Shown here piece by piece: positions 55,151 to 57,514 of a DNA stretch of 64,000 bases (position 1 is its first letter; every line of letters starts with the position of its first letter). The notes under the pieces are model-generated. The model had not been told where the DNA came from, made no database searches, and saw only the letters and a program-made list of their open reading frames with translations. Position numbers and translations under genes: made by a program. The DNA is from Pseudomonas alkylphenolica (GTDB lineage: Bacteria; Pseudomonadota; Gammaproteobacteria; Pseudomonadales; Pseudomonadaceae): positions 3,971,501 through 4,035,500 of the forward strand of contig NZ_CP009048.1 in assembly GCF_000746525.1 (NCBI RefSeq). Reading direction: 5' to 3'.

Positions 55151-57514
55151 TTAGATGGCAATGCCGTGCTTACCCATAAAGGTCACAAAGGCATCTTCAT
55201 CCAGCACCTTGAGCCCCAGTTCGTTGGCCTTGGCCAGCTTGGAACCGGCCCCCGGCCCCGCCACCACGCAATGGGTCTTGGCCGACACCGAGCCCGCGAC
55301 TTTGGCGCCCAGGCTTTCCAGCTTGTCTTTGGCGATATCGCGGCTCATGCGCTCCAGGGAGCCGGTCAGCACCCAGGTCTGACCGGCCAGCGGCAAGCCA
55401 GCAGCGACTTTCTTCTCGCTGCTCCAATGCATGCCAAAGTCGAGCAGTTGCGCTTCGATAGCTCGAGCTCTCTGGGTATTTTCCGAAACAAAAAACTCAC
55501 GCAAAGCACCTTTTGCTTTTTCATTGATGCCTTTCATAGAACTCAGATCCAACCAGTCTTCACTGAGCCTAATCAGACCGTCCAGGCTTCCCGCCTTATC
55601 CGCCAACTTCTTCGCCCCTGTCGCAGCAACACCAGTAATACCTAGTTTCTCTACGAATGCGGCGAAAGAGACAGAGGCTGCTAATTCCACGCCCACGCCA
55701 CCTTCATCTTGAATCTCAAGCCCACGTTCACGTAAATCCCGGATTACCTGCTTATTGTGCAACTCGGAGAAGAATGAGTGAATTTCAGAGGCGACTTCCA
55801 TTCCGATATCAGGGAGGTACGTGAGTACTTCAGGCAACGCCTTCTGAATACGCTCCAACGAGCCTAATGAGCGAGCAAGCACCTTGGCGGTTTCCTCCCC
55901 AACATCTGGAATACCCAAGGCATAAACGAAACGCGCAAGAGAAGGCTTTTTACTTGCCTTTATCGCATCCAGAAGGTTGTTGCTGGAAAGTTCGGCAAAT
56001 CCTTCTAGATCAACAATTTGCTCGAACTCCAAGCGGTACAGGTCTGCCGGAGACTGGATAAGCCCTTCATCCACCAGTTGCTCTACGCTTTTCTCCCCTA
56101 GCCCATCAATATCCATCGCACGGCGCGAGACGTAATGGACAATCGCCTGCTTAAGCTGCGCAGCGCAGCCAAGGCGCCCGATGCAACGATATACGGCCCC
56201 TTCACTGACAACTTCCTTGCCCTTTCCACGCTTGATCAACTGCGTCGGCTCCACAGGGGAACCGCAGACTGGACACTCTTTAGGTATCTCAATCGGACGA
56301 GTCAACTTAGGACGCCTCTCAAGAATGACTTCCATTACTTGAGGAATCACGTCCCCGGCACGGCGAATGGTGACAACATCCCCGATCCTGAGACCCAAAC
56401 GGCTTATTTCTCCCATGTTGTGCAACGTGGCATTGGACACGGTCACTCCAGCCACCTTCACCGGCTTGAGCCGGGCCACCGGGGTGACCGCGCCGGTACG
56501 TCCGACCTGGAATTCCACATCCAGCACTTCGGTCAACTCTTCCATGGCCGGGAACTTGTGGGCAATGGCCCAGCGCGGTTCGCGGGCGCGAAAGCCCAGT
56601 TCGCGCTGGGAAGCCAGGCTGTTGACCTTGAACACCACGCCATCGATCTCGTAAGGCAGGTCATTGCGGCGCGCGCCGATATCGCGGTAGTACTCCAGGC
56701 ACTCGGCAACGCCCGCTGCATGGCGCAGTTCGCGGCTGATCGGCATACCCCAGGCCTTCAGCTGTTCCAGGGTGCCAATATGGGTGTCGGCCAGCGGCGC
56801 CGAGACCTGGCCCAGACCATAGCAGCAGAACTCCAGCGGGCGGCTGGCGGTGATCTTCGAATCCAGCTGACGCAGACTGCCCGCCGCTGCGTTGCGCGGG
56901 TTGGCGAAGGTCTTGCCGCCCGCTTCGATCTGCGCCTGGTTCAGACGCTCGAAGCCGGCCTTGGACATGTACACCTCGCCGCGCACTTCGAGCACGGCTG
57001 GCCAGCCCTCGCCTTGCAGCTTCAGGGGAATGTTGCGCACGGTACGCACGTTGACGCTGATGTCTTCGCCGGTGGTGCCGTCACCGCGGGTGGCGCCCTG
57101 CACCAGTTGCCCGTCGCGGTACAGCAAGCTGACGGCCAGGCCATCGAGCTTGGGCTCGCAGCTGTAGTCCACCGCCGCGCCGTCACCGAACAGGTCGCCT
57201 GCCGGCAGATCCAGCCCTTCGACCACGCGCCGGTCGAACTCGCGCAGGTCGTTTTCCTCGAAGGCGTTGCCCAGGCTCAGCATCGGCACTTCGTGACGCA
57301 CCTGACTGAAAGCCGACAAGGCCGCACCGCCGACACGCTGGGTCGGCGAATCAGCGGTCACCAGCTCCGGGTGCTCGGCTTCCAGCGCTTTGAGCTCGTT
57401 GAACAGACGGTCGTATTCGGCGTCCGGAACGCTGGGCTCGTCGAGCACGTAGTAGCGATAGTTGTGCTGGTCGAGTTCGGCACGCAGTTCGAGGATTCGG
57501 GATTCGGCAGTCAT
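55151..57514 (-). CDS. ligA: NAD-dependent DNA ligase LigA (mosaic composition)
   Basis: 787 residues from the ATG at 57514, longer than the ~670 of E. coli, as usual in Pseudomonas. The N-terminal Ia domain binds NAD ([17 protein letters not shown]). The adenylated Lys122 is in [17 protein letters not shown]. Then follow the OB fold, the zinc finger [10 protein letters not shown]...CIGRLGC, helix-hairpin-helix repeats and a C-terminal BRCT domain. It seals nicks during replication and repair. About codons 360-690 (55440-56430) have hand-counted GC near 40-45% per 60-bp line against 60% or more on both sides, with many AT-ending codons. This suggests replacement of the middle by homologous recombination from a lower-GC relative. 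The reading frame is intact. Confidence 0.95.

Follow-up and report, generated by a model that had tools for sequence, protein, structure and literature searches.

The NAD-dependent DNA ligase gene (ligA) of Pseudomonas alkylphenolica is a mosaic, in which codons 368 to about 698 conflict with the native sequence on either side while the reading frame remains intact. The explanation that we favour, with a probability of a little over 90%, is that these codons were replaced in frame by the orthologous fragment of a ligA of lower GC, whose source was a diverged lineage of Pseudomonadaceae outside the putida-fluorescens clade. The mosaic structure, its borders and its conflict with the flanks are direct observations; the route of entry and the donor we infer. 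A recombinational replacement of about 1 kb in this essential housekeeping gene was also the reading of the original prediction, and it is supported by the sharp borders, the AU tests, the indels and the divergence of the segment. The gene lies in a window (the whole stretch of DNA that was analysed) of 64,000 nucleotides, with the following features.

55151..57514, minus strand: ligA, NAD-dependent DNA ligase, 787 codons plus stop, frame intact.
56414..57514, minus strand: N-terminal part of native sequence, codons 1-367, which holds Ia, the adenylation domain and the beginning of the OB fold and differs from L004, the ligA of the nearest relative (G089), at 1 of 366 residues and 68 of 1098 bases.
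55421..56413, minus strand: segment taken as foreign, codons 368-698 (rest of the OB fold, zinc-finger region, helix-hairpin-helix), defined by GC3 and divergence breakpoints, identity, AU tests and indels.
55154..55420, minus strand: native C-terminal part, codons 699-787 (BRCT), in which 16 of 267 bases differ from L004.
56413..56461, minus strand: 5' junction block, a 49-base exact match to L004 that ends at the border (codons 352 to the first base of 368).
55337..55399, minus strand: first long exact native match past the 3' border, 63 bases, codons 706-726.
57653..58528, minus strand: zipA-like gene, upstream of ligA.
58733-62221: gene that we take to be smc, beyond the zipA-like gene upstream of ligA.
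54932..55028, minus strand: small SRP RNA gene, just downstream of ligA (Rfam RF00169, 79.1 bits).

All five Pfam domains reported for LigA lie in a single frame, namely Ia (residues 5-53), adenylation (67-323), OB (328-403), HhH (528-591) and BRCT (708-775), and no stop interrupts the gene, which had been predicted to have an intact frame. At E 0.001, Pfam gave no hit to the zinc-finger family PF03119 for this protein, and several of its relatives lack one too; Cys 414, 417, 444 and 450 align with the zinc-finger cysteines of E. coli LigA (2owo). The KLDG motif at residue 122 presumably is the AMP-binding site. The breakpoints given below place the segment at codons 368-698, covering the end of the OB fold, the zinc-finger region and the HhH region, as had been proposed. 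Judged from its sequence, the chimeric LigA is likely to be active. The names zipA and smc for the upstream neighbours are our assumption. On the opposite strand, an open frame of 807 codons (56135-58558, plus strand) runs antisense to ligA and zipA; it is probably a by-product of high GC and seems to displace ligA in naive gene calling. A second NAD-ligase adenylation domain is found at G000:C1:5315775-5316353, inside a frame of 583 codons that we assume from its size to be LigB-like.

The original prediction was based on GC counts of five 60-bp lines, which are exact (24/60, 27/60 and 26/60 inside; 36/60 and 37/60 outside), and the low-GC centre is equally clear over its whole length, with 51.4% GC at 55440-56430, 62.6% and 65.3% in the rest of ligA and 62.4% in the window. 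Third positions are indeed richer in A/T inside, with a GC3 of 0.51 in codons 368-689 vs 0.81 outside. A model with two breakpoints sets the GC3 borders best at codons 368-689, with a log-likelihood ratio of 40.1 over a uniform gene, and the maximum in 200 permutations of codon order, run on a coarser grid, was 9.6. Divergence from L004 alone gives borders at codon 368 (366-370) and codon 698 (691-702), where the ranges are those within 3 log units. The borders from composition only and from divergence only nearly coincide, and the sharpness of the GC3 profile at both ends counts in favour of transfer. The centre therefore lies where it had been placed, at 55440..56430, although its exact ends were slightly off and are better set at about 56413 and 55421-55441 (codons 368 to 692/698).

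The dip is also exceptional on the scale of the genome. In a scan of 1.60 Mb (28%) of the genome, based on a codon model and covering 838 predicted genes with 250 codons or more, the strongest interior dip in GC3 is that of ligA (z 5.31, compared with 2.90 for the next gene; mean 0.53, SD 0.60). When 404 kb were compared with genome G015, ligA ranked second of 202 orthologues for the interior drop in identity (0.66 inside, 0.88 outside). The gene in first place has 2144 codons, a diverged N-terminal stretch of 325 codons and a GC3 drop of 0.09, and in those ranked 3-5, which we take to be FlgE-, flagellin- and CheA-like, GC3 changes by between +0.03 and -0.13. Drops in GC3 of 0.21-0.23 occur over short stretches of 60-100 codons in dnaX and the ORF at 54051.

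Comparison with relatives shows how far the middle departs from its surroundings. Amino acid identity to L004 is 99.7% over the 366 residues of the N part and 96.6% over the 89 residues of the C part, which bears out the claim that the catalytic N-terminus and the BRCT end are native, and 69.2% in the middle (1/366, 3/89 and 99/321 residues differing, respectively). At the DNA level, identity is 92-96% in blocks of the flanks and 52-79% in blocks of the middle. Four-fold sites differ from L004 at 20% in the N part, 70% in the middle and 17% in the C part, and for the control pair L004-L036 the corresponding values are 24, 21 and 25%. In 2141 other sequence pairs with an N part more than 95% identical, the lowest identity of the middle is 87.6%.

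A low-GC centre shared by close relatives would argue against transfer, and none of the ligA loci of 109 relatives (29 from genome handles and 80 named, amounting to 99 distinct genes) has such a centre. The difference in GC3 between the middle and the N part is -0.30 in the window's gene, and no lower than -0.10 in any of these loci. The DNA identity of the middle to all 109 is flat at 63-67% (75-94% for the lower of the two flanks), and in every one of them (109/109) the middle is less like the window's ligA than either flank is. The middle keeps 136 of the 142 columns that are at least 98% conserved. The six altered columns are D368G, V408I, R423P, V445I, I459V and D584E; the median relative has none altered, and only L159 (20), L131 (16) and L160 (13) have more than the window's six. 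Two of these three sequences are themselves odd.

Separate phylogenies of the three parts had been proposed as a check, and two of the parts gave an answer: the middle falls outside its own clade and the N part inside it, while the C part is too short for the AU test to reach a decision. In the main AU tests, which used full IQ-TREE searches with 41 sequences, holding the middle in its own clade was rejected with p 5e-5 (protein) and 0.005 (codon positions 1+2), and holding it outside the core clade was not rejected. For the N part, placement outside the core clade was rejected (p 0.017 for protein and 0.042 for codon positions 1+2), and placement in its own clade was not. In a quick AU test under a mixture model, a native middle was not rejected (lnL 66 worse, p 0.10); the quick runs looked poorly converged, with some constrained trees outscoring free ones, and the same routine favoured an odd grouping for the N part.

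Indels point in the same direction as the main tests. Two deletions of 2 residues (residues 649-650 and 659-660) are present in the ten nearest relatives and missing from the window's middle. Among 246 other aligned ligA sequences, both deletions are found in 120, neither in 115 and the first only in 10, L165 being a broken row that is uninformative on this point. Around residues 649-660 the middle resembles Pseudomonas sp. LS44 (L133/P0019) and P0020 rather than its own clade. The position of the middle in the trees is unstable: it is basal to all in one tree and stands beside P0016/P0020 and LS44, on a long branch, in two. Because of the better trees and the closest matches, its source is placed, probably, among Pseudomonadaceae outside the putida-fluorescens clade.

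No close donor of the middle was found by any of the searches made. In the region search over 5.8 billion proteins, the best of the 120 listed among 8000 scored candidates reached 74% amino acid identity. At the DNA level, 398 phylum genomes and 398 genus genomes (that of P. alkylphenolica included) were searched with an equally negative outcome; the best match in the other 397 genus genomes is 70% identical across the whole length and 73% across the first two thirds, and the P. alkylphenolica genome holds no second DNA match. The search with the whole protein in the order and the family also yielded no close donor among the matches listed. Sampled family genera of lower GC (GC3 0.24-0.65) are farther from the middle (53-64% amino acid identity) than Pseudomonas is. 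With respect to mobile DNA, protein relatives in 182 phage and 215 plasmid records are all below 60%, DNA matches from phages and plasmids cover only 13-14% of the segment, and viral contigs (8 loci) reach 43% identity or less.

The failure to find a donor for the segment could also mean that the middle is native and has evolved fast, under AT-biased mutation or relaxed selection, and that nothing was transferred. The long branch of the middle and the p of 0.10 in the one quick test would fit such a history, as would the similar centre in genome G026 (described below), with no more than two partial relatives (78% and 70%). Accelerated evolution is nonetheless hard to reconcile with borders that are sharp within a few codons, with four-fold differences of 70% inside vs 17-20% on both sides, with the absence of two deletions that the ten nearest relatives have, where the middle reads like lineages without them, and with its rejection by the AU tests in full searches. 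We regard this history as very improbable.

Slightly less probable still is that a mobile element or phage with a ligase piece of its own inserted itself into ligA and left the segment as a scar, in the manner of the recA island of Vibrio cholerae. Phages and plasmids do carry ligases, and a divergent part fused in frame to a native remainder is what such an event could leave behind. On the other hand, the sequence is native on both sides, no direct repeats of at least 16 bases bracket the borders (searched in 54700-57700), no element gene was recognised by eye among the neighbouring ORFs, the relatives in phages, plasmids and viral contigs are distant, and in the similar cases of G019 and G026 the upstream genes and the downstream ORF are in place. 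The evidence comes from one assembly of a single genome, which raises the question of an assembly or contamination artefact; this has a negligible probability, given a one-contig genome with completeness 100 and contamination 0.62%, in which the replacement is homologous and in frame within a gene and the assembly holds no other DNA match.

Native flanks, no second genomic DNA match, no bracketing repeats, distant mobile relatives and the 49-base match at the 5' border fit homologous recombination of a linear fragment, which is the likely mechanism. Linear donor DNA would have entered by transformation, transduction or conjugation, and the fragment would then have paired with the resident ligA and been exchanged by homologous recombination. 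The 5' crossover would fall within one of the most conserved stretches of the gene (SNATLHNM), where windows of 8 codons from codon 359 on are at the 92nd-98th percentile of conservation between Pseudomonas clades. The 3' crossover would fall between the HhH region and BRCT, and the border there lies in weakly to moderately conserved sequence (9th-81st percentile). The product would be a chimeric ligase, with a native adenylation domain and BRCT and a foreign OB/zinc/HhH body.

Judged by composition and divergence, replacement of this kind recurs in ligA of other Pseudomonas. The ligA of the genus members G019 and G026 is only 66% and 63% identical to that of the window, and their mutS (90% and 90%) and gyrB (93% and 93%) are ordinary. 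In both genes GC3 is 0.43-0.44 from codon 43-96, depending on the fit, to codon 682-708, and the ends are richer in GC. These two genes are described as follows.

L159 (G019), 2190-4544: low-GC3, strongly diverged ligA centre from about codon 40 to about codon 700, with native-looking ends.
L160 (G026), 2158-4494: the same, with the same approximate limits.

The genes zipA and smc are upstream of ligA in both genomes. An ORF of about 390 codons lies just downstream of ligA in L159 (4695-5858) and in L160 (841-2034); it occurs in 41 of the 80 named loci and is not in the window.

The centre of G019 has six protein relatives at 83-95%, followed by others at 65% or less, and these six may share one event; among the 398 genus genomes it is found in G019 only (next best 65%). 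A protein search with the centre of G026 returned itself, one sequence at 78% and P0243 at 70%. P0243 is of the diverged type up to about residue 451, its adenylation part being nearest to P0242 and G026, and native in the remainder; outside residues ~32-451 it matches P0256/P0267 at about 94-96%. In L311 (G086) a low-GC centre at codons 361-690 has the borders of the window's segment within error, and it is 62.5% identical to the window's middle and 66% to anything else compared. In L316 (G837) it is codons 69-326, the adenylation domain, that are low in GC and replaced (best match 69.8%; other parts 95-100%).

Segments defined by divergence are codons 368-698 in the window, 394-704 in G086 (5' range 355-404), 65-285 in G837, 43-704 in G026, 39-724 in G019 and 32-451 in P0243. 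Among the replaced pieces, several begin close to codon 32-65 or 361-394 and several finish close to 690-709, which puts them in the neighbourhood of domain limits. The low-GC centres of G086, G026 and G019 are 37-38% diverged.

Further irregularities were seen in ligA. Interior GC3 dips occur in L244 (G160, of the same order; codons 529-696) and L394 (G063; codons 565-716). The dip of L121 (G251) at codons 61-302 was not counted because divergence does not confirm it, the best divergence segment being 618-686. Milder discordances are seen in P0075, P0198/L117 and L145. In L116 (G113) and L123 (G440) the N part is nearest to P0028/P0106 (90-93%), and the middle, with both deletions present, is nearest to core-clade sequences (83-84%), a pattern that could reflect an exchange between clades. 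The ligA of L158 (G034), at 6199-8543, is matched in two pieces; an inserted element was considered and rejected, since the pieces overlap and the gene has a frame break. At G810:C1:3244217-3246557, ligA is matched in three pieces.

The frequency of such genes was estimated from the full ligA genes of 118 genus members, fetched regardless of score and leaving 117 after omission of G034 for its frame break; G086 and G837 had been picked for weak scores, and an earlier set of 170 ligA genes is a biased sample. Long low-GC centres are found in 3 of these 117 other genes (G086, G026 and G019; log-likelihood ratio of at least 19), with G063 borderline at 14.4. Applied to 1113 other genes from G000, G015 and G089, this statistic gives two such values, both in G089, one at an apparently over-extended start and one near a gene end. 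The excess of mosaics in ligA (3/117 vs 2/1113, Fisher p 0.007) is suggestive only, because a single gene across many genomes is set against many genes from three genomes, and because the threshold was chosen once the ligA values had been seen. An identity screen of mutS and gyrB in 80 of the 118 genus genomes found no outlier (85-98% and 87-100% for whole matches, the mutS match being split in two draft assemblies); its power does not suffice to rule out small swaps, as L311 and L316 do not stand out in whole-gene identity either.

Taken singly, the event in the window is of a known kind, in a striking place and with an unusually divergent and unsampled donor. An essential replication gene has apparently tolerated the swap of about 42% of its length for a piece whose protein sequence differs by 31%. 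What deserves to be followed is that ligA is affected repeatedly and with similar borders: the recurrence supplies natural chimeric ligases of defined limits on which domain compatibility can be tested, and it may point to a pressure on bacterial DNA ligase, an enzyme that is studied as a drug target. The mosaics also suggest caution with ligA as a phylogenetic marker in Pseudomonas. No earlier description of a mosaic ligA in Pseudomonas was found in titles and abstract openings of the open-licence PMC literature, among the matches listed.

The boldest reading, and an unlikely one in our estimate, is that Pseudomonas ligA is a repeat target of domain-sized allele replacement. The modules would be the adenylation part (start 32-65, end 285-451) and the OB/zinc/HhH body (start 361-394, end 690-709), swapped singly or together; the inserts would be low in GC, would differ by 31-38% in protein and would come from a pool that is largely unsampled, and the first 30-40 residues and most of BRCT would stay native. 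Repeated swaps would be explained by selection for divergent ligase cores, which is possible, for example as an escape from a LigA-binding antagonist of phage or bacterial origin. The sober alternative to selection is a neutral hotspot, arising from conserved border sequences and tolerance of the enzyme.

In Neisseria penA and in Campylobacter, an internal block of a conserved gene is reportedly replaced by a diverged orthologue; the donors are said to be known, and for penA the selective agent as well. Neisseria penA is presented as a case of mosaic core-gene alleles formed by interspecies recombination (PMC9600782) and introgression in Campylobacter as interspecies recombination in core genes (PMC3139442). 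The window's ligA resembles these mosaics in that an internal block is swapped for a diverged orthologue, and differs from them in that its block, about 31% different in protein, comes from an unsampled donor and is not tied to a known selective agent. In Vibrio cholerae, a genomic island in recA brings a divergent recA, according to PMC4405046. There too, the locus of a DNA-metabolism gene receives a divergent version, although in that case an excisable island sits in the gene, whereas no island is seen in the window's ligA and both of its ends are native. Finally, PMC2639706 deals with gene fragments in lateral transfer and asks whether domains are the units transferred. The breakpoints of ligA lie inside the gene, like those of the fragments treated there; the difference is that the ends of several ligA pieces recur near codons 32-65, 361-394 and 690-709, in the neighbourhood of domain limits.
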